From contig JBBHKE010001925.1 of assembly GCA_037447655.1 (NCBI GenBank), positions 62,001 through 126,000 of the forward strand: a stretch of 64,000 bases of DNA. The letters are read 5' to 3'. Under the pieces are notes generated by a model. It was not told the DNA's origin. It made no database searches and saw only the letters and a program-made list of their open reading frames with translations. Every line of letters begins with the position of its first letter. Position 1 is the stretch's first letter. The translations under genes were made by a program, and so were the position numbers. Below, piece after piece: positions 14,140-64,000 of the stretch. This DNA comes from Zygnema cylindricum (taxonomy: Eukaryota; Streptophyta; Zygnematophyceae; Zygnematales; Zygnemataceae).

Positions 14140-15080
14140 CTAAAAATTAGTGTTGTGTATCGGTAAAAAATTTATCGCGATAACACCGATACCGATAGTT
14201 ATCGGTTATCGAACGGTCAGAGGTCCCGATATATCGGTCTGAGACCAACAAATTCCATATCGGCGATAACTTAAAAAAATATAGTATGCATACAATAGTA
14301 CTTTATAACATACGGTATTATATTATTTACTTTATATAGCGTGGCATGCCACGTATAAGAATCTGTTCCGTCTCTGTTTAACTGCGCTTTCTTACGGACA
14401 GCGCAGCACATAAGCGTTGGCTGGTTAACTGAACAGGAATTTTACGGTAACTTACGGAATTGTATCGACAAACTGGTGAACATGGAACGGTAAAAGTACA
14501 ACGGACGCAAAATAACATTCTGCGCGCCCCAAGAATCGAACGGACAACTTGGAATGAGAAAATACGAGCAGACGGCCAGCGTGAGCGCCGGCATCCCAGA
14601 ATGGCTCTTTTGGCATCTTATGCCAAAATGCCAACAGATTGACACGTGACAGGTCCCTAGTGGATCCCAAGGAAGAAAGGGACAAAGCCATGGCGTCGGA
14701 TGTGAAAGGTACATCGTTCTTACTAGATCCGTACCAAAACCGTACAGATCTCATGGCGGCTACTGTAATTTCTGTGTACTTTCTGTGCGATCTGATTGGT
14801 AGGCACCTCAGTAGATAGGGGTTGTTAGAAGGGCGCGTCCGGGGTATCACACGTACAGTTGAGTGTACTGGCCGTACATTTATCTGTACGGTCCGTACAG
14901 ATATCGCCGATAGTTATCGATATCGGTGTTATCGCCAATAAAACCGATAAATATCGGGTATTTATCGTCGATAACACCGATAGCGATATATCGTACCAAT
15001 ATATCGATTATCGGGTACCCGAAAAAAGGTCCATATCGGTTATCGGCAAATCCTTACCGATACACAACACTACTAAAAAT
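14140..15080. mobile_element. hAT-type TIR element, copy 1, with 8-bp TSD
   Basis: The 925-bp element (14148-15072) starts TAGTGTTGTGTATCGGTAA and ends with the complement of that word. It is flanked by a perfect 8-bp direct repeat CTAAAAAT (14140-14147 and 15073-15080). The terminal regions, about 120 bases at each end, are packed with CGATA and TATCG words, so the inverted homology is longer than the terminal word. The interior has no transposase frame. A TAG-starting TIR with an 8-bp duplication is the hallmark of the hAT superfamily, so this is a non-autonomous hAT element. Confidence 0.9.
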
Positions 15081-15419
15081 AGCTGAGCTGAGGAGCGGGA
15101 GATGCGCTTTCATCCGCATCGGTGATCGATCCGAATAGCTGAACCGATGTTTTCTATTCTCCCAATGCGATGTGCCGGTATTGATGCACTTGTCCCAATC
15201 GCAGCGGAGGTGTTTGGCACTACGGACGATTCCTTTGACGATTTCCATGCAATTGCGCGAGAAAAACATTTGAATCCAAGCCTCCAAGGGTCGTAAGAAT
15301 CCTCCCTGTAGTAAAGGCAAGTTCCCATGTAACCGAAAATTAATCTTGCTCTGTTTTTTCAGGAAGATTTTTCGTACTATTTTTAGAGCGTTCCGATGTA
15401 ACGCACTAAAATCGTTACT

Positions 15420-16320
15420 TTAAATTGTAGTGTTGTGTATCGGTAATCATTTACCGATAACCGATATGGACCTTTTCTCAGGTTCCCGATAATTGATATA
15501 TTGGTTCGATATATCGCTATCGGTCTTATCGCCGATAAGTAACCGATAATACCGGGTACTTATCGGCGATAACACCGATAACGATAACTATCGGCGATAA
15601 ATGTTTAGGCCGTACAGATAAATGTACGGGACAAACAGATAAATGTATGGCATGTACATTCAGCTGTAAGTCTTATTCCCCGGACGCGCAAAAAGTACAG
15701 TAGCCGCCATGACGTCCGTACGATTTTGGTACGGATCCAATATAAACGATGTACCTTTCACATCCGACGCCATGGCTTTGTCCCTTAATTCCATGAGATC
15801 CACTGGACACCTGCCACGTGTGAATCTGTCAGCTTTTTTGGCATAAGCTGCCAAAAGAGCCATTCCGAGATGCCAGCGCTCACGCTGGTCGTCCGCTCGT
15901 ACTTTTTCATACCAAGTCGTCCGTTCGACTCCGGCTGCGCGCATAATATTATTTTGCGTCCGTTGTTCTGTGTGTTCGCCGTCCTTTTTCCGTTCCATGT
16001 TTAGTAGTTTGTCTGTAAAATCCGTACATCGCCGTAAAAAATGTTTGTTCAGTTAACCGGCCAACGTTTTCCGTGCTGTGTTTTCTTACGGAACATAATC
16101 GTACACGGGGCATGACACGCTATATAATGTAAATAACATAATACATTATTTAATAAGGTACTATAGTATGCGTACTACATGTTTTTATAGTTATCGCCGA
16201 TATGGAAATTGTTGGTGTCGGATCGATATATCGGTGCCTCTGACCGTTCTATAACTGATAACTATCGCTATTGGTGTTATCGCGATAAGTTTTATATCGA
16301 TACACAACACTATTAAATTG
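15420..16320. mobile_element. hAT-type TIR element, copy 2, inverted, with 8-bp TSD
   Basis: The 885-bp element (15428-16312) has the same TAGTGTTGTGTATCGGTAA terminus at its left end and TATCGATACACAACACTA at the right. It is flanked by a perfect 8-bp duplication TTAAATTG (15420-15427 and 16313-16320). Its interior matches copy 1 in reverse orientation, for example the segments around 14280-14350 and 16120-16190. It lies only 340 bases from copy 1. Different target duplications show two independent insertions. No transposase is encoded. Confidence 0.9.
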
Positions 16321-17660: not shown

Positions 17661-17667
17661 GGACAGG

Positions 17668-17870
17668 GTTTTTTTGGGTTTTTTTGGGTTTTTTTGGGTT
17701 TTTTGGGGTTTTTTGGGTTTTTTTTGGTTTTTTTTGGGTTTTTTAGGGTTTTTTAGGGTTTTTTAGGGTTTTTTAGGGTTTTTTAGGGTTTTTTAGGGTT
17801 TTTTAGGGTTTTTTAGGGTTTTTTAGGGTTTTTTAGGGTTTTTTAGGGTTTTTTAGGGTTTTTTAGGGGT
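17668..17870. repeat. TTTTAGGGTT decamer array ending at a gap
   Basis: A tandem array of ten-base units begins as degenerate TTTTTTGGGT units. From about 17740 it becomes thirteen near-perfect TTTTAGGGTT units and stops at the N run. The unit contains TTTAGGG, the common plant/algal telomere repeat, but the period is 10, not 7. Related words are scattered in a mannosidase-gene intron (23140-23460). Confidence 0.85.
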
Positions 17871-50310: not shown

Positions 50311-50519
50311 GTTGGGCACCCTAGAGGGTGGGCCCATAACCTGTAATTCTTTGTCACCCATTGGGCTACAGAATTCAGGAAGCCTCTAGGTAGTTTTTGA
50401 CGAACCCCCTTTCAACTAGAACCACTGTTATTCAAAAAGGCAAACAGATAATCTAACTACACCCCTGTGCAGTCTGGACTCCCTTGAGAAACGCCCAACC
50501 ATTGGGTAAATTATATAGC

Positions 50520-51300
50520 GGCAAAGATGCCAATATGTATACAAGCTTATTGGGAGAGAGGCGGCTACCTCTTCAATCCTCTAAGTCCTAAATCCCTCTC
50601 ATAACCCGTATCTATTGATGTACGAACCAATCAAAAAACTGTACATACAGAAAGGTACTATGGTCGATGTCCTTTCTTTACGACTTGTGTACGATAACGC
50701 CATAGAGTGGATGTGTGTCTCTTTTGGACTTGTCCTCATGCTCTTCGGGATTCCCGCTTCCCAATCCTATCTCGCGACGTGGCGCCACGTCATATCACTC
50801 CCAAAAACCGCCAAAGCGGCCATTTCCGGATCTCGGCGATGATGTGTGCCGTCTGATCCAAACTGGCTTTTAGTACTAGCTGTTAAAATAATGTCTGGTA
50901 CATTTGTTTCGTGCGGGTTTTTGTTCGCACCATATTCCAACTAGTCTCTATGTTCTTTATCTGTAATTCCGTTAATCGGATTAAAGTCCCTAAGCAATGT
51001 TTAAATACCATTCAAACCCTGTGTAGTCTAATGAACTCCTACGACAGACCGGTTAGAGCTGACGGCTACTCCTCGCTCTGCCGGTCGGAGGTTCAAGTCT
51101 TGCCGTACTCCACCTTTTTGTTAAAGAGTGACTTATGTCACTCTTTAGCCCTGCCTATGGAGCTGAGGCAGCCATGGCTCCACCTCCCTCACTTTCTTTC
51201 AGTGACTACAACAATATGGGGACTAGGGGGAGGAGGTGGAGGCAGGCTGCCTGTGCTTTCTTTTTACTTTTAAATTTATTAAGACCTAGAAAATACCTCT
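50520..51300. mobile_element. LTR-like repeat with tRNA-like segment, copy 2
   Basis: A unit from about CTTATTGGGAGAGAG to GACCTAGAAAATAC, matched in inverted orientation by 47887-48690. At about 51047-51115 on the plus strand there is a tRNA-like stretch with GGTTAGAGCTGACGGC and a B-box-like GGTTCAAGTCT. If read on the minus strand it lies where the 5' LTR of Copia-1 should be. Whether it is an LTR containing a tRNA-derived segment or a SINE family joined to a promoter-like head cannot be settled here. Confidence 0.5.
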
Positions 51301-53950: not shown

Positions 53951-54232
53951 GTGCCTAAGTAACGTAAGGGAAGGGCCCACAGCTCGGAGTTGTCGGCATC
54001 GGAGTCTTGCAAATTATCCCTAAAATGCGAATGCTCCCCAGAATGATGAACATGCCCACTGCTGCCCACATCCCTCCCATAGATATGCATGCAAAATAGG
54101 AGAGACGCTCGGACTGGGAATAAGGAAAAGTGCAAGGGAAAGCGAAAGTGATCCCCTCCCCTTTCTTTCCCCCCCCCTTGATCGGGGAAAGGGATTTGGG
54201 TCTCGGTAATCAGGCTGATATCCCAATTTTGT
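53941..54232. repeat. Direct repeat of Gypsy LTR-like sequence, copy 1
   Basis: About 290 bases matching 55501-55787 in the same orientation. Shared blocks include AACGTAAGGGAAGGGCCCA, ATAGATATGCATGCAAAATA and GGGATTTGGGTCTCGGTAAT. Copy 2 abuts the polypurine end of the Gypsy element, so this is probably a further partial LTR. Confidence 0.75.
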
Positions 54233-55500
54233 GCTTTCCCTACGGGAAGTCTATAGCACTTGTTCCCTCAAAACCCGTTGTCTCGATTTATGGGATTCCA
54301 GTTTACTCCGGAATGGTCACTCCCAAAGCAAGATAGAACTCTAGAACGAAGACACAAATGCACTACCACGTAGATATATATATATATAAATATATATAAA
54401 TAATTATGATTGGCTTTCCTGATTTAACAATATCACCTTGCCCCAGAAAAGAGAATAAAAGATAGAAAATGTGAAATATAACAAAACGAGTTTAACATAC
54501 CACAGCAATTAACGATGACAATTAGAAAGAGGCGACCCCTCCCTCGATAGTATAGTCAAAAGGTATGGTACTCCTGCAACCTTCGGTGTCCGCTGCTCGG
54601 AATAGACCAAACTCTTCTCGGTTGAAAACAACAAAAAGTCCAAAATTACCCAAAAGGAAGATAGTGCAAACTACCCGCCCGGACAGTGATTTCCACAAAA
54701 GACAGATTCAAAACCAAGATGGCAATAGAGTCGAAAACAAGACAAAGATTCTCCAAAAGAAGGTTTGTTTGGAATTTTTGAGGGTTTTCATAGGAGACAG
54801 TACTAAAAAGCAACCTGTCTCCTTCGACCCCAAGTGCCTTATACATCAAAGTGCCTTATACATCAAAGTTTGTCAAATTGCAGGTTCAAAAGTCAAAGCT
54901 ACGCTATTAACCAAATCAAAGTTTGTCAAATTGCAGGTTCAAAAGTCAAAGCTACGCTATTAACCAATGAGCGGCAAGCAAATGTAATTGAACTAACATA
55001 AGACAAAATTGTCCGTACTACACTCGGGGCTAAAAGTTTTGCTCCGGACTGCGGCTGGATCCGCGACCGGAAGTAATTTTTTGTTCCACTATGATAAGAC
55101 AAAGTCTTGAAAATGCTACGAAAGCGACAGACATTGACCTAAGGTAATTAACGAACCAATTGTCAGCTGAGCCTGAACAAAATTCCTATTGACTTCTAAG
55201 AGCATAATCAAGATGCAAATCCGGAAAGTTACATGGCAATCCAGAATGTACCCCTCCAAGGGGCTGTTGGAAACTGGTCCAATGTAATGGAATTGCGATC
55301 TTTGAGACGGTAGAACTTTGTTGTCCGGCCTCCGTTATGCGCGAAATAAAGTGCGTTCCGCTCAATTTAGGAAATACAAGGATCTCGTCTGGTTTGGGGC
55401 ACTCCCTCCTCCGTACTATGAAGACCATACAGTTTAACAAGAGCCCGAAAATCCTTGGTGATATAAAGGTATGCCTGGAAAGCACACGAGCTTGACAGCT
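54233..55500. other. Non-coding stretch between the direct repeats
   Basis: No frame with recognisable motifs. It holds a short TA microsatellite (about 54377-54400) and a tandem duplication (54863-54964). It may be the rest of the Gypsy 3' LTR or an unrelated remnant. Confidence 0.4.
54863..54964. repeat. About 50-bp tandem duplication
   Basis: Two adjacent copies of a unit containing AAAGTTTGTCAAATTGCAGG and AAAAGTCAAAGCTACGCTAT, essentially identical. A shorter duplication of GTGCCTTATACATCAAA precedes it at 54834-54867. Confidence 0.85.
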
Positions 55501-55800
55501 GTCGAGCTTGCTTGAGTAACGTAAGGGAAGGGCCCATAGCCTAGAGTTTTCGGCATTCGATTCTTGCAAATAAACCCCAAAATGCGAATGCTCCCCAAAT
55601 GATGAACATACAAACTATTGCCCACATCCCTCCTATAGATATGCATGCAAAATAGGAGAGACGCTCGGACTACGAATAAGGAAGAGTGCAGGGGAAAGCG
55701 AAAGTGATCCCTTTCCCCTTCCTTTCCCCCCCCTTGACCAGGGAAAGGGATTTGGGTCTCGGTAATCAGGATGATATCCCAATTTTCCCCCCTCTTAGTC
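55501..55800 (-). promoter_or_regulatory. Gypsy polypurine tract and start of the 3' LTR
   Basis: Read on the minus strand, the purine tract AAGAGGGGGGAAAA (about 55800-55787) is followed by TTGGGATATCATCCTGATTA. This arrangement marks the junction of internal region and 3' LTR, where plus-strand DNA synthesis is primed. The following 290 bases recur at 53941-54232. The exact LTR ends were not determined. Confidence 0.55.
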
Positions 55801-55808
55801 AACTGTGA

Positions 55809-57279
55809 CTAAGAAAATAATATAATATAATTACCCGCTCCATTCGGAGTTCCCACAAAACCAGGTGCTAAAGGGTAGAGGGTGTTTCTCCCAAAAGGAA
55901 GGGAGACAGGCTGAATGCCAACACTGACCACACTGATTGCAGACCAATATGCCGTGCAAGGGTGTTTCTCCCAAAAGGAAGGGAGACAGGCTGAATGCCA
56001 ACACTGACCACACTGATTGCAGACCAATATGTCGTGCAGCTGGGAGGACGGATGGCAAGTGGATGAACAGGAAGGAGGATCGACAAAGTAATTCAAATGG
56101 AAAGTCGGTTCGTCTTCCAATCCCCGAAGATGGCAAGGGGCCACATTGATCTGATTCTCTTTAATTTTTCGACCATCTTTTCCCTCCAATGTAAGAACCC
56201 CTTTGTTGGAAACTTCGACTACTTTCAAAATTACTCTCCCGGCAGAAATATCCAGCGTGTCCTTCTTCTGTTGCATCCGATATACAAAGTCCTCAGGCAC
56301 AAATCGTGACTGTTGAGGCACATAATTCCCGCTCCGGCGTTGAGAATACCACAACTGATCTCGGTGTTGAGCCGCTTGCAAATTTCCCATAGCGAGAGGC
56401 TTCTCTCGGTGGAATATCTTAGCTCTGTCGGCGATCAGTTATTTGACTGTCCCCTTATCATCCATCTCTAGAAGACCACTGCTTGGGCCGATGCCGCCCC
56501 GGCCAAGATGGGATGCCGTCCAAATAGAATGAAATAAGGGCTGTAGGAGTGGAGAGAAGCCTGCCTGCTGAATCGGTAGCCCAAAGGAATCCAAGGCACT
56601 CCCCTGTCCCACTCCCCCAAATCTTCTTGAACCGCATATTTTCGTAGTGACCGCTTCACTGTTTGTAAGCACGTTCCAGCGAAGCCATCGGCTTGAGGGT
56701 GGTCACGGCTGGAAAGCCGATGGTCAACCAAACATTTTTCCAAGAGGTTGGAAAATTCTCCAGCGAATTCAGTGCCTTGGTCGGTTAGAACTTCCGCAGG
56801 CGCCCCGAATTGGGCTAAAACCCGCTACAAAAAGGCATCCGCAATGGCCTTGGACTCCTTCCGGGGCAAAACCACCAACTCGATCCACTTAGAAAAATGT
56901 TTTATCATGACCAGCACGAATCGGTTCCCCCACACGCTGGTCTGAAGAGGTCCCAAAAGGTCTAGCGACCAGAGATAAAACATTTCCCCGGATAGGAAGA
57001 GAATGAAGCTCAGTCCAGCCCTTTTTTTCAAAAGCTGCCTTAACTCGATCGCATGAGGAGCAAGTCTGCACAATTCGGTTGACTCGGGTCCGCAACTTGT
57101 GCCACCAATAAGAGCCCGTAACTAGAGAAGTGGTATGTTTTTGCCCGAAGTGTCCACATTGTTGATGGAGATTGGAAATCAGAGTTTCTCGGTCTGAGGG
57201 AGGATAAATCACTTTCCTCATGTCGTCCAACCATTTCCGGAGGAGAACACCTCTGTCCCAATCGTACGCCGCCATTCAC
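55809..57279 (-). pseudogene. Gypsy integrase with C-terminal PHD-like zinc finger
   Basis: Minus-strand frames in order: integrase zinc domain (HQQCGHFGQKHTT, QTCSSCDRVKAAF), core with first Asp (LWSLDLLGPLQTS) and second Asp (EVLTDQGTEF, about 56790), then DHPQADGFAGTCLQTVKRSL. Relatives have an acidic catalytic residue where GFAG stands, so the third catalytic Glu appears lost. A chromodomain-like linker region (ISAGRVILKVVEV) is followed by a Cys/His finger (PSCSSTCHP, LVCNQCGQCWHSACL) resembling a PHD finger, a domain that reads histone tails. An 80-bp tandem duplication (55881-56040) repeats the finger in a shifted frame. Confidence 0.8.
55881..56040. repeat. 80-bp tandem duplication within the PHD-like finger
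   Basis: The unit beginning GGTGTTTCTCCCAAAAGGAA starts at 55881 and again at 55961, differing by about one base. Because 80 is not divisible by three, the second copy on the minus strand is translated in another frame. Confidence 0.92.
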
Positions 57280-58440
57280 GTCCGCACTCGCGATAATTGA
57301 ATTCTGGTCAAGTGGGGAAGAGGCACCCCCTGTTGGTTAGATTGGAGAGCATCGGGACCGTTCCACAAATCCTTACGTCCGACCCCTATAAGCGCCTGCC
57401 CTTCTATGGCTGCGGAGAAAGTTGAGAGTTCCCCCCCAGATTGGGGAAGCCAGATAAAGGCGGAGGATGCTTGGATGATCCCCAAACTGATTTTCGGACT
57501 CTCATCATGCCGAGCTCCAGTCCAAACCATGGTGGAGGGGTCGGGATTCCGGCTAAGTCCGTCGACATTTCCATGGATTTCCCTTGCCCGGTGAACAATG
57601 TTGAAATCATATTCCTGCAGTATAAGAACCCATCTGGCGAGCTTGCCGGTCAACTTACTATTTTCCATAATCCATTTCAGGGGTTTGTGATCGGTGATCA
57701 GGGTGAAATTGTAACAGGGACAAATATGCAACACAATACACCAAAATGCACAGAGGAAAGCTCCAAGGATCTTCCCGTAGGAAAAGCAAGAAGACAGAGC
57801 AGGGACAAACAAAGGTTGCGCTTTATTACTCGGGAGAAGATTACAAGATTTAGGGCTCGTTGCGAAGGTCTATTCAAGAGTGTTACTGACTAGGCCTACT
57901 TCACTATTTAAACTAACTTGCTGGTAGTCAACCTAATACTGTACAATTATACACGTGGACTTTTCACGGTCAGCCAGGATAAATCCGTAATATCCTTCTA
58001 GAACTATACCGTTCTATCTAAATTCCGCGGCGTTGCTTTTTTTCTGCTATGTTACGCTGGTACACTGCGCTGCTATGCTGCTACGCTACTAACTTGCTAC
58101 GATGCTATGCTGCGTTGGTCAGGAATCGCAGCAGCGCTGCTCTCACATCGCAACTATAGCGCCTAGTTGCTAGCTACTAAGTACACAACTCTGTAACCCT
58201 GTTACAGAAATGGACCCCGTACAAATAAGGCCGGAAATGTTGAATTGTCCAGACCGCTGCGAGTAGCTCTCCGTGGTAACTACTATAATTCCCCTCTACT
58301 CTGTTGTTGCTCCGGCTGGCGTAGGCCACCACATATTCAGCTCTTGCATCATCAACTTGAGCCAAAACCGCTCCTAATCCAAATCTGCTCCAATCACTGT
58401 AAAGGAGGAAAGGCCTCTGGTGATTAGGCATGCGGAGCAC
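57276..58440 (-). pseudogene. Gypsy RNase H, split by an insertion
   Basis: The first half (58440 to 58212) has LLYSDWSRFGLGAVLAQ with the catalytic Asp and YHGELLAAVWTIQHFRPYLY with the Glu. The second half (57709 to about 57540) has FTLITDHKPLKWIMENS with the next Asp and VHRAREIHGNVDGLSRNPD. The two halves join exactly when the 497-bp insertion at 57710-58206 and one 5-bp duplication are removed, so the domain was intact before that insertion. Confidence 0.88.
57705..58211. mobile_element. 497-bp solo-LTR-like insertion with 5-bp TSD
   Basis: The insertion 57710-58206 begins TGTAACAGGG and ends CCCTGTTACA. It is flanked by the 5-bp direct repeat GAAAT (57705-57709 and 58207-58211) and sits inside the Gypsy RNase H domain. 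TG...CA ends, a 5-bp duplication and the size fit a solo LTR. The 10-bp perfect inverted ends are longer than most LTR ends, so a small TIR element is the alternative. About 58060-58115 has repeated GCTATGCTGC-type words. Confidence 0.88.
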
Positions 58441-58463: not shown

Positions 58464-59819
58464 TTAAGAACTGGAAGGAGATCTATTGTTCTTCGGCCCA
58501 CTACCACTCTTGGTCCTTCCGCTATAGCTGGTTGAGGGGCTGAGCGTGACTACTGAACTCGAGAATAAACCGCTGATAGTAGTTGGCCAGACCCAGAAAG
58601 GTGCGAAAGGCAGAGATGTCCTGCTGTGGGGGAAGAGTGTCAAATGCTGCCACCTTGACCATGTGGGGACCCACTGTCCCGGGAGTAACCTCATGTCGGA
58701 GGTAAAGTATTTTCTATACCCCAAAAATACCTTTGCCCGGGTGACATATGAAGCCCACTGCTTGGAGTGCCCGGAGAACGATCTGGACATGCTCCAAGTG
58801 TTCCACAAAAGTCTTCGAGAATTAAATAACATCATCAATATAGCACTGGGCAAAATCGATTCCTCGGAAATCTTTGTCCATTGCCCGTTGTAATTTGGCC
58901 GGTGCATTCTTGAGTCTGAATGGCATGTAAATCCATTCATACAGTCTGGAACCGTCCCAAAATGCGGTTCTTTCCCTGTGCTTTGGTTCCATGGCAATTT
59001 GGTGGAAACCATTCTTCATGTCCAAGGTGGAGTATATGGTGGCGCCAGCAAGGGAGTCGAATATCTCTTCCGGGGTCAACATCGGATACAGGTCAAAGAT
59101 GGTGGCCGTGTTCAGCATGCGATAGTCTCCACACATCCAGAAGTCTACAGTCTTCCCAGACGAGTCCTTCTTGGGCGGGAGACCTGTCGGGGAAGCGAAC
59201 CTGTGAAGTCTTGTACTTTCTTGAACCAATCCGGCTTCCACCAAGTTTTGACTTAAACCGTGATGAATTCCTTCTCTTTGAAGCTGAGAGGATAGTGCTT
59301 TTGCCAAACAGTCGTCGTCACGTCGATCAAATCGATTCGGAAAGGGGTTCCTTTGTAAATACCGACATCTGTTTTTGACCATCAGAACACTTGTTTGTTT
59401 TTGGCCAATAACTCGGAGAGCCGCGCCTTATGTTGAGGATCCAGTTGTTTCCCAAGGGTCCAATCCATTTTCCCAGTCTCTACGGCAGCCCAAGCCTCCC
59501 GCGGTCTACCCCAGAGGTTAATGACGAATTCTAATCCTACCGGTGGATCTTCCTCGACCCCTTCGGCTAGGACGCGAATGCTGACAACTTCCGCTAAGCT
59601 GTAGCCATCTGAGCCGCCGCCCCCCCCTACTGGGAAAACCTGCAGTGGTGAAATGTGAATTCTACTTCTTCTCCTTTCTCTCCCCCCCTCAAGCTGTAAA
59701 GTTGCCTGCATTGCTAACAACTGAGGAGCTTGAAGGTTAATGGCCCGCGATTCTGGGGACTCGAGACTGGAAAAGGCGAGTGCATACTTGAGCACCCATG
59801 TAATTGAATTCAAATCCAT
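58464..59819 (-). pseudogene. Gypsy reverse transcriptase
   Basis: An N-terminal linker (LDPQHKARLSELLAKNKQVF) is followed by broken frames with Gypsy RT blocks: MCGDYRMLNTAT, YSTLDMKNGFHQIAMEPKHR (catalytic Asp), TAFWDGSRLYEWIYMPFRLK and QCYIDDVI (the YIDD box at about 58840-58825), directly followed by a stop. The thumb region continues in another frame to 58464. No aspartic protease was recognised between the methyltransferase-like segment and this domain. Confidence 0.85.
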
Positions 59820-60720
59820 ACTTTGCCCAATTAGGTTTCACCTTTGAAGGTCTCATATACCTGGTGCTGCCGTGGTGCCTTTATGAAATCCCATTGCTTC
59901 TTACCGTTCCGCAATCGTTGGTGTTGTCCAGATTCTTGCCTTCCAGTCAAAAATCCTTCCCGCAACTCCTTTCCGATAAGCGTGACTGTGAGGGGAGAAA
60001 CTAAAGTAAGGAGTGCTTTCCGTGGTATTCTCGGTTTGTTGCACCGAAAGAAAGGGGAGCGATCGAGTCGCATCACAGGGGTGGCCATCTTGCCTTCCAC
60101 AAGAATTTATTGCACGTAATTCTGCAGATCTGGCATTTGCTTGTCTAACAGTTGCCGGAGGACTGAAAACGTGATCATATTGGTCCAATATGCCCTTACT
60201 CGGTGTGCCCGGGATCCCATCTGTACGGCGTCGAAAACCACTGGAGCTCCTATAATCCAGGTTACATGATTCCAGCTGTCAGCAACCTGTTTTCTTTTAT
60301 CATCTCCCGGGTGGACATTTTCCGGAACGTATCCCACCGGTGTGTCTTGGAGCTGTTTAAGTCACGTGACCAATATGATCATCTAGTAAAATGATCCACT
60401 TTTGCGGAATTGATGCCCTTTTCCTTGTCTTGCTAGGGAGTATCCCTAATAAGGCCAGCCTGCTAACACCAAATCCACTCTTCCCAAACTGGCTAGATGG
60501 GGCGCCATGATGTTTTCAACATTTAAGAGGAGACTCCGGTGAGCTTTGGAAAAGGCTATAACTAAAAGCTGTTGTGGATATAGGTGATGAAACTGGTAGT
60601 AGTTATGAATGATTCAGGAGCCTTAGAGATAGGGTAAGCATTTCTCCCAAGGGGCAACCGTCGTACTAGCTGTTTTCCGAAAAGATTTTGGTTATATCCT
60701 CCATCATTAGTAAGGAAACG
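59730..60720 (-). pseudogene. DNA cytosine-5 methyltransferase domain carried by the Gypsy element
   Basis: Minus-strand frames read as a decayed C5-methyltransferase. LGRVDLVLAGWP is followed by Tyr-stop where motif IV has Pro-Cys-Gln (60446-60454). GYVPENVHPGDDKRK carries the ENV of motif VI (about 60314-60322). PVVFDAVQMGSRAHRVRAYW matches motif VIII of DNMT3-type enzymes. GKMATPVMRLDRSPFF and GRIFDWKARIWTTPTIAER, then AMGFHKGTT and IGQSMDLN, fit motifs IX and X. The enzyme class transfers methyl groups from S-adenosylmethionine to cytosine C5. Frameshifts near 60180 and 60000, several stops and loss of the catalytic Cys show it is inactive. The N-terminal motif I region, near the gap, is not readable. 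It lies upstream of and in the same orientation as the reverse transcriptase. Confidence 0.8.
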
Positions 60721-60853: not shown

Positions 60854-60863
60854 NNNNNNNNNN
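60854..60863. other. Assembly gap (10 N)
   Basis: Ten undetermined bases of unknown true length next to a CT microsatellite. The start of the Gypsy element is probably lost here. Confidence 0.95.
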
Positions 60864-61852: not shown

Positions 61853-63836
61853 CGAGACTCTGACAGTTTCTGAGGAGGATGACACGGATCTATTCGCTAT
61901 GGCGGCAGCAATGGAGGGCGCAAAGGACCCTGGATGGATACTGGATACAGGAGCGTCAGCCCACATGTGCTAGAACAAGGCCATCTTCAACAATCTAAAA
62001 GCAACGCCGGAGAAAAATATTTATTATGCTTGTGGAATGAGTGTCCAGACTCGTGCTGTGGGTGATGTGTCCTTACTAGTTGATGTAGAAGGAAAAGTAA
62101 TTGAAAGGACTCTTCACAATGTCTTATTTGTGCCTGACTTTAAGAAAAATATGTTTTCTACGTCGTTGGTAGAGAGTAAAGGCTTTGAGGTTAATTTAAA
62201 AAATGGTCGGCAGGTTGTTAGCAAAAACGGCAAGGTTGCGGTTACAGGTACTAGAGATATTAGCAAGATGTACCGTATGGATATGGCTAATACCAAGGAG
62301 AATGATGTTCTGTACTCCGGTGTTTTGCACTCAGATGAGTTGTGGCATAAAAGAATAGGCGATTTACACTATGATAGTTTAAGAAAAATGGTCCTTGTTG
62401 GCAAAATAGAGGGTGCATCAATCACAGATCAGCCGGTCAAAACATGTGATGGTTGCGCTCTAGGCAAAATCCACAGACTGCCATTTCCTAAAGAGTCTGA
62501 CCATCGGTCAACAAAACTTTTACAACAAATTCATTCGGATGTTTTTGGTCCTGCGAAGGTTCCATCTGCCGGGGGGATGAAATATATGGTCACATTTACA
62601 GATGATTTCTCCAGGTTTACAAAATTTTACTTCATGAAGGAAAAGAGCGAAGTGTTTGGTCGCTTCAAACACTATAAAGCATGGGTTGAAAAACTTCATA
62701 ATTTACCTATTTTGCAGCTCAGATCGGACAATGGTGGTGAATATACATCAAAGGAATTTGAAACCTCTTTACTCGAGGAGGGAATAAGTCATCTATTGAC
62801 TGTTATATATTCACCGGAACAAAATGGTGTGTCGAACAGATTAAATAGAACTCTCACGGAGAGCTCTAGGTCGATGCTTGCGGATAAAAATGTGGATCCG
62901 AAATTCTGGGCTAAGGCTCTCAATTGTGCAGTTTATATTAATAATAGGATAGGATCAAAATCGGTAAAAACTACTCCTTACGAGATCTAGACAGGTACCA
63001 AACCAGATGTTAACCATTTCAAGGTCTTTGGTAGTCAATGCTTTATCTTGGATACGTCTACAGATAGATGGAAAATAGAACCAAAGGGATTAATGGGTAT
63101 TCTGTTAGGATATGATGATCACTCAAAAAGTTATAGTGTTTTTGTGTTTGAGAGGCATAAAATAGTTGTAGCACGGAATATTATTATAAAAGATGAGCTT
63201 GAATCCATAGATTTATTTCAAATGACAGAGCAACAAAAGCAGCAAAAAGTACAGGAATATGTCATTTTAGATTGCATGCAAGAAATTATCCCGCAATATG
63301 TCATTTTAGATTGCATGCAAGAAATTGTCCCGCAGATGCAAAATTCTCGAGTAGTGACTCCGAAGTCCGCCTCTCTACAAGTTCCTCAACATGTTCAGTT
63401 CCAACCGGAAAAGCAGCGGTCAATACACACAGATCGCAACCAGCGGAATCAACGCAATGTGCGACATCCAACGATCTCAGCCTCACAATTTTCGGGGGGA
63501 AGAAGATTTAGCAGCTGCTTACAAGCAAGCTCTCACTTTGCCTACTCGGCAACCTCATGGGAGCCCTTGACCTTCCAAGAGGCCATCTCACCACCGAAGC
63601 AGAATCACTGGATTGAGGAAGCAAATGACGAAATGAAGTCTATCATGGAGGCTCAAACATGGGAGCTTGTGGACCTTCCTCCGGACCAAAAAGCGATCGG
63701 CATCAAATGGGTATTCAAGGTGAATTTAAATCGCGATAACACCATTGAACACTATAAGGCTAGACTTGTGGCAAAGGGCTACAATCAAAAGGAAGGAATC
63801 GATTTTGAAGAAACATTTTACCTATTACCATTTTAG
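61853..63836 (+). pseudogene. Copia-type retrotransposon 3, 5' and 3' truncated
   Basis: A plus-strand polyprotein. It starts in the gag-protease region (DPGWILDTGASAHMC, protease DTGAS) and has a stop at 61971. Integrase follows (ELWHKRIGDLHYD, CDGCALGKIHRLPFP, HSDVFGP with the first catalytic Asp, RSDNGGEYTS with the second, NRLNRTLTESSRSMLADKN), then a stop at 62988 and the integrase C-terminal part (GILLGYDDHSKSYSVF). The reverse transcriptase N-terminus (EANDEMKSIMEAQTWELVDL, GIKWVFKVNL, QKEGIDFEETF) ends abruptly at about 63820. The sequence beyond is unrelated, so the YVDD box and RNase H are missing. A 39-bp tandem duplication (about 63260-63337) repeats YVILDCMQEI. Only two stops interrupt about 2 kb, so it is the youngest-looking coding copy here. 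Confidence 0.88.
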
Positions 63837-64000
63837 GGCCTATGTCAATCACCTCCAAGCCGTACAAGCCGCAGAACCTGCCACTCGGATGATTGCCAAC
63901 CCCACACCCTGCACGACTCTCCTGGACGCCTAAGACTCCTTTATACCGAAAGGAACAAAACAGCCATCAAGGAGTTCACCGACTTTCGATGATTGAAGAA
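63837..64000. other. Sequence beyond the Copia-3 break
   Basis: The 164 bases after the reverse transcriptase break do not read as Copia sequence in any frame I checked. They run to the window edge and nothing is recognised. Confidence 0.3.

Follow-up and report, generated by a model that had tools for sequence, protein, structure and literature searches.

A dead Gypsy-type retrotransposon copy with a DNMT3-type cytosine methyltransferase preceding its reverse transcriptase, and the relatives of the element

The minus strand of the window, the whole stretch of 64,000 nucleotides of Zygnema cylindricum DNA that was analysed, carries a decayed, 5′-truncated Gypsy-type pol at 60613-55834. We hold it as close to certain that this is a dead copy of a retrotransposon in which a DNMT3-type cytosine methyltransferase (MTase) precedes the reverse transcriptase (RT) in the Pol polyprotein. 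The MTase lies directly before RT and is part of the Gypsy-type element, the two forming one module. An element of this kind, KnitGypsy-Dnmt3, was already described from an alga in 2018. Beyond what the available parts of that report (PMC5890265) contain, we find relatives in the protein sets of Marchantia, Calypogeia and Closterium, an alternative placing of the MTase, where it follows RNase H and precedes integrase, and integrase-type ends on permuted repeats. The window copy is made up of the following parts.

59775..60613, minus strand: DNMT3-derived C5 methyltransferase, decayed and without motif I, in two frames with a shift near 60056-59996 (phmmer; alignments to P0001 and L013)
59254..59774, minus strand: linker between MTase and RT, common to P0001 (60080-59205) and a genomic 1520-aa ORF (60056-59244)
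58723..59253, minus strand: reverse transcriptase, Gypsy type, YIDD kept (Pfam RVT_1, E 2.4e-10)
58207..58413, minus strand: RNase H, first part
57710..58206, minus strand: solo LTR insert of 497 bp, TGTAACAGGG...CCCTGTTACA, with an ATTTC target duplication; a 78% copy is present in L032
57495..57709, minus strand: RNase H, second part; the match, 57495-57764, extends into the insert
56498..57155, minus strand: integrase, H2C2 zinc-binding domain and DDE-type (rve) core, in pieces (Integrase_H2C2, E 2.9e-15)
55834..56114, minus strand: C-terminal Cys-rich, PHD-like end (PHD at E 0.28, below the Pfam cut-off), with an 80-bp tandem duplication at 55879-56038
55500..55786, minus strand: repeat B, first copy (B1)
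54231..55499, minus strand: repeat A, corresponding to the second of the two A copies in a complete element, with the 5′ one lost; 55035-54388 is 72-80% identical to the 5′ A of L013, L012 and L026
53943..54230, minus strand: repeat B, second copy (B2), 88.5% identical to B1 and ending in CTCGACA, the 3′ end of the element

The Pol order RT, RNase H, integrase is present in the window, and the integrase is of the DDE (rve) type with an H2C2 zinc domain (Integrase_H2C2 in the window, the D, D and E motifs in L013). Where DIRS elements have a tyrosine recombinase in place of a DDE integrase, the ORF here ends in the rve integrase. The layout is not that of whole LTRs at the two ends. Relatives have split repeats in the order A-coding-B-A-B, and the window copy lacks its 5′ end. 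Since there is no pair of whole LTRs we speak of a Gypsy-type pol and place the element with the KnitGypsy-Dnmt3 kind. The DNMT3 domain lies within the Pol ORF in relatives, and in broken frames in the window copy. Segments at 50506-51296 were considered as LTR parts and dropped; they resemble a dispersed repeat also nested in L026. Upstream of the element there is a run of N at 60854-60863. On the opposite strand, adjoining the Gypsy element, a Copia-type gag-pre-integrase and integrase (rve, E 9.2e-11) occupies 61974-63836 (plus), and at the edge of the window 63835-64000 (plus) shares 82% identity with the sequence preceding the L013 MTase and may be where a further related copy, or a common repeat, begins.

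The original prediction placed an MTase-like segment ahead of a Gypsy RT at 59730-60720, and a six-frame reading shows each of its motifs on the minus strand in the order given, in two frames of 60613-59775: GWPY*GYS (motif IV, the asterisk marking a stop), ENV, GSRAHRVRAYW, TTPTIAER and GFHKGTT. Its assignment to a DNMT3-like enzyme also stands. Searched with phmmer against 177,635 distinct PDB sequences, the window MTase piece, with X at stops, gave 31 matches up to E 10 (best E 0.0014), 29 of them to DNMT3A, 3B or 3C, and a profile of 22 MTase relatives scores 78 bits (6.7e-21) against DNMT3, 46 (4.1e-11) against DRM and 31 against HhaI. By these comparisons the nearest class of MTase is DNMT3. 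The motif IV codons in the window are TAT TAG, Tyr plus a stop where the catalytic Cys is expected, and with Pro-Tyr-stop at this position the window MTase is DNMT3-derived and not a working one. Motif I is not recognisable in the window, where homology begins only at 60595-60613, and there are frame shifts near 60000 and in later domains. Further disruptions are the solo LTR in RNase H and the tandem duplication in the PHD-like end. The copy is dead, as had been proposed from the loss of the motif IV Cys. A Pfam match had been expected as well; three decayed MTase pieces gave no PF00145 match at E 1, but most of the relatives listed carry PF00145 in precomputed annotation, which overrules the absence of a match in the decayed pieces. 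A homology search with a 224-aa query, under a limit on candidate length that excludes polyproteins, returned 113 candidates and none at E 1e-3. An AlphaFold model of P0007, a metagenomic relative, with alignment A1 has a mean pLDDT of 69.5 and a pTM of 0.63.

Of 257 candidates that the window MTase piece drew from 5.8 billion proteins, a single one reached E 1e-3 or better. This is P0001, a metagenomic protein of 685 aa that is 47% identical to the MTase piece (E 8.7e-36) and combines PF00145 with PF00078. It aligns to the window MTase at 60595-59996 with 45% identity (E 6e-43) and to the window RT at 59289-58804 with 69% identity, and a single-frame alignment over 60080-59205 leads from the MTase C-terminus through the linker to the start of RT (E 1e-37). 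The predicted arrangement, MTase before a Gypsy RT on the same strand, is confirmed by this alignment across the boundary, and because the linker is common to P0001 and the window a chance neighbour is ruled out. Searches of viral contigs with P0001 and A1 gave 5 and 30 pattern matches, respectively, none confirmed; of 131 pattern matches to A1 in genome contigs one was confirmed, in a contig resembling contamination.

Copies are numerous in the same genome, a 353-Mb assembly of 2689 contigs. PF00145 has at least 123 matches there (123 scored of 782 candidates, host DNMT genes included), with open frames up to 2395 aa. Twenty loci of 10 kb were fetched from the best matches and the longest frames, not as a random sample. 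RT lies downstream of the MTase on the same strand in 18 of them and RT, RNase H and integrase are all found in 17, L022 having RT and RNase H only, so that the anticipated order MTase, RT, integrase recurs elsewhere in the genome; the MTase stands alone in two (L023 and L024). A protease precedes the MTase in 13 of the 18 loci with RT (family A) and is absent from that position in five (L012, L013, L020, L022 and L026). With P0001 as query there are 71 matches at 65 places, from 3968 candidates, and both MTase and RT are present in all 65 scored places, a figure biased by a query that itself holds both domains. The alignment runs singly from MTase to RT at 59 places; the other six have one MTase row and one RT row each, with one RT row starting inside the MTase.

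The window element is 72-76% identical in DNA to L012, L013 and L026 over 60350-56044, the insert apart. Open frames had been anticipated among such relatives and are present: L013 has an ORF of 1520 aa without stops, residues 114-1520 of which match window 60595-55834, and it keeps MTase motifs I, IV, VI, VIII and X together with YIDD and three integrase motifs. Identity between the window and L013 is 62.5% in the MTase and 87% in RT; by this comparison the MTase part of the window has drifted more than RT. The catalytic Pro-Cys-Gln of motif IV is kept in all four uninterrupted family B copies.

A search with the MTase of P0001 found at least 64 proteins, P0001 included, a lower bound since the best 7995 candidates by common words were scored, with lengths up to about 1199 aa. 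Named sources among them are Marchantia polymorpha (4), Calypogeia fissa (1), Closterium (4) and Candidatus Obscuribacterales (1, P0004). The MTase follows a protease in 16, precedes RT in 9, lies on the RNase H-integrase side in 13 and is alone in 26, as judged with position profiles built from members of the same 64-protein set. P0045, a Marchantia gene model with the MTase after protease, also has RNase H and integrase pieces. The Marchantia relatives are gene models, which do not imply intact elements; through them, elements of this kind would be present in a plant that serves as a genetic model.

An MTase tree was built by a quick method with SH-aLRT support only. Its 74 rows are the window piece together with domain pieces at least about 230 residues long; shorter rows such as P0063 were excluded. 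The window groups with L012, L013, L022, L023 and L026 (99), and these with P0001, L020 and L024 (96). Family A forms its own clade (100), and the rows of known MTase position separate with one change. In an RT tree two Gypsy RTs that lack an MTase are set apart from the MTase-bearing rows (95/93); each of the two is a long branch, and one is only 31% filled. On these trees a single origin of the association between MTase and element is possible.

One further relative, L037 (CADCWO010000201.1), is a contig of 9285 nt in a cyanobacterial MAG of the GTDB set. Its first 127 nt are repeated exactly at its end and thus it closes on itself, whether as a real circle or as an assembly loop. Across the closure gag, protease and MTase lie in one frame, followed by TAG, then CAA TCA, then RT, RNase H, integrase and PHD (1047 codons). 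TAG with CAR-YYA is a known readthrough context, and if readthrough is used the MTase of L037 would be made at the level of Gag. The contig looks like a eukaryotic retrotransposon within a cyanobacterial MAG, and P0004 is likewise named a Candidatus Obscuribacterales protein; contigs of this sort can be mistaken for bacterial DNA methyltransferases.

How does the element compare with known systems? KnitGypsy-Dnmt3 of Klebsormidium nitens, as described in the available parts of De Mendoza et al. 2018 (PMC5890265), has a DNMT3 in the Gypsy Pol ORF, with Ka/Ks under 0.2 for the enzyme, and DIRS-like repeats. It shares with the element here a DNMT3-type enzyme in a Gypsy Pol ORF, DIRS-style repeats combined with Gypsy domains, and purifying selection on the enzyme. 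The host differs, and the likeness is one to the published description; the element here further comprises no fewer than two diverged families, its 4-bp duplications accompany integrase-type ends, and some relatives carry the MTase between RNase H and integrase. SymbioDIRS-Dnmt3 of Symbiodinium likewise has a DNMT3 domain in a retrotransposon Pol, split direct repeats and two domain orders, but carries a tyrosine recombinase where the ORF here ends in an rve (DDE) integrase. SymbioLINE-Dnmt, also of Symbiodinium, is likewise a retrotransposon in which a cytosine methyltransferase lies upstream of RT; it differs in being non-LTR, with the enzyme in ORF1 and from an orphan DNMT lineage, not DNMT3. 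As to host DNMT3 and plant DRM, the catalytic domain here is nearest DNMT3 by profile, but the MTase is part of Pol, and its motif order I to X is not rearranged, unlike that of DRM. The sections available of a 2025 paper (PMC12344493) mention such DNMT3s and label the LTR elements Copia, where PMC5890265 labels them Gypsy; those available of PMC6453930 and PMC10538959 hold nothing on such elements. In the open literature, elements of this sort did not turn up for liverworts, Closterium or Zygnema, an absence that proves little.

Transposons are usually the targets of DNA methylation. Why, then, should a parasite bring a silencing enzyme? A lineage with a predicted de novo MTase of its own at 65 scored places of one genome, with open frames and some recent-looking copies (L014 and L016), makes a question open since 2018 testable. 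In intact copies we infer that the MTase would be made and packaged with RT and integrase. Before integration it might then methylate the new cDNA at cytosines, by analogy those of CG. This would be the likeliest use of the enzyme, and we give it about an even chance. The SymbioDIRS DNMT3s methylate CG de novo in yeast according to the available text of PMC5890265, which also reports that the K. nitens Gypsy enzyme had no detectable activity in yeast, a result its authors term inconclusive. CG-specific decay, a possible trace of methylation, is not seen in the window copy, with transitions at 37 of 204 CG, 58 of 288 CHG, 138 of 851 CHH and 171 of 1261 A/T sites. CpG observed/expected is 1.04-1.07 in three 10-kb stretches of family A, which are not depleted; for family B, the coding parts of three copies give 0.59-0.62. 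Without CG-specific decay in the window or CpG depletion in the three family A stretches, heavy CG methylation is not supported, though the data are compatible with it.

The enzyme could instead serve a change in host chromatin or RNA, or temper the spread of the element. Such roles are discussed in the available parts of PMC5890265 (RNA methylation for the LINE type, chromatin effects, self-restraint) and we regard them as a substantial possibility, though short of probable; the placing of the MTase beside RT, and beside integrase in another group, would suit action on cDNA.

A less probable reading, which we consider rather unlikely, is that the MTase is catalytically idle and retained in Pol for a DNA-binding or structural role. 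In family A copies (n=6) Glu replaces Pro in motif IV (WECQ for PCQ), motif VIII has Leu and motif X is altered, and the motif IV pattern G[WF][PES]CQ is missing in 8 of the 64 relatives, some through truncation. In these family A copies, nevertheless, Cys-Gln of motif IV and Glu of motif VI are retained, and the pattern is kept in the other 56 relatives. Among uninterrupted copies dN/dS in the MTase is 0.146-0.151 in family A (2 pairs) and 0.132-0.247 in family B (5 pairs), all below 0.25, on the seven of 45 pairs that were usable, 35 being saturated and 3 too close, and from copies picked for open frames. Values for RT are 0.02-0.14 (8 of 66 pairs usable) and for integrase 0.09-0.53 (4 of 28). 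The RT pairs are lower than those of the MTase, which makes the MTase the less constrained domain, a point that would suit an idle enzyme.

The repeats bear on how an element of this kind would integrate. On the 3′ side of the coding part the window has B (55786-55500), A (55499-54231) and B (54230-53943), with the 5′ A absent. L026 is complete, with repeat A1 of 1510 bp, the coding part, B1 of 191 bp, A2 98.1% identical to A1, and B2 93.2% identical to B1. L014, of family A, is also complete at 11,109 bp, its A1 and A2 (1388 bp) being 99.64% and its B1 and B2 (190 bp) 99.5% identical. The outer ends of complete relatives are TGTC...GACA. The internal B-A junction reads GACA-GC-TGTC in six of nine family A loci (L014, L016, L027, L028, L011 and L019) and was not found in the fetched stretch of the other three (L010, L017 and L018); it is seen also in the window near 55500 and in L037, and with one change in L026 (AACA-GC-TGTC). 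Perfect 4-bp target duplications flank three of five complete relatives, L014 (AAGG), L026 (ACGT) and L016 (CCCT). That of L027 is imperfect (AAAG/AAGG), and L028, whose 3′ end is the least sure, has none. A purine-rich tract lies just 5′ of B1 in L026, L012, L013, L014 and the window, and no typical tRNA primer site was seen by eye after A1.

The permuted linear form equals a two-repeat circle opened at one B-A junction. The A-coding-B-A-B form might arise from circular or circle-like DNA with two repeat copies, and integrase would open the internal B-A junction (GACA-GC-TGTC) to give TG...CA ends and a 4-bp target duplication. We infer, in short, insertion of the integrase type, of linear DNA permuted with respect to the usual LTR form. 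That the layout is instead made of tandem or nested ordinary LTRs, and is not the element's own form, we think distinctly unlikely: L012 and L013 show only A-coding-B and no target duplication, but the same layout occurs in two diverged families, with A repeats 98-99.6% identical, and the common ends, the 4-bp duplications and the shared junction sequence all speak against it. Permuted repeats with integrase-type ends bear on the origin of DIRS-like repeats without a tyrosine recombinase.

The layout as the element's own form and the enzyme as a modifier of cDNA can be joined in one tentative proposal, which as a whole we think possible but doubtful. A deep, streptophyte-wide, Gypsy-type clade would keep a working DNMT3 that methylates nascent cDNA, and would integrate permuted DNA through an integrase cut at the pre-formed B-A junction. 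From an early branching of the clade onward the MTase would have held two positions in Pol, and one group would have it in a gag-protease ORF before a leaky stop.

That the MTase derives from the host, as a DNMT3 pseudogene or retrocopy that adjoins a Gypsy element without being related to it, as the decayed pieces without a PF00145 match and the two fetched loci without RT downstream (L023 and L024) might suggest, has almost no probability left, being already refuted at the level of sequence by the alignment running from MTase through linker to RT, with one-frame fusions in P0001 and genomic ORFs, a common linker and both domains in 18 of 20 fetched loci and 65 of 65 scored places.

Elsewhere in the window there was no Rfam match at gathering scores and ARAGORN detected no tRNA. 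Units of AGGGTTTTTT (TTTTTTAGGG) form a telomere-like array at 17665-17864, next to an N gap, and at 14148-16312 five pairs of nested inverted arms, 85-90% complementary, make up a long hairpin-like structure.
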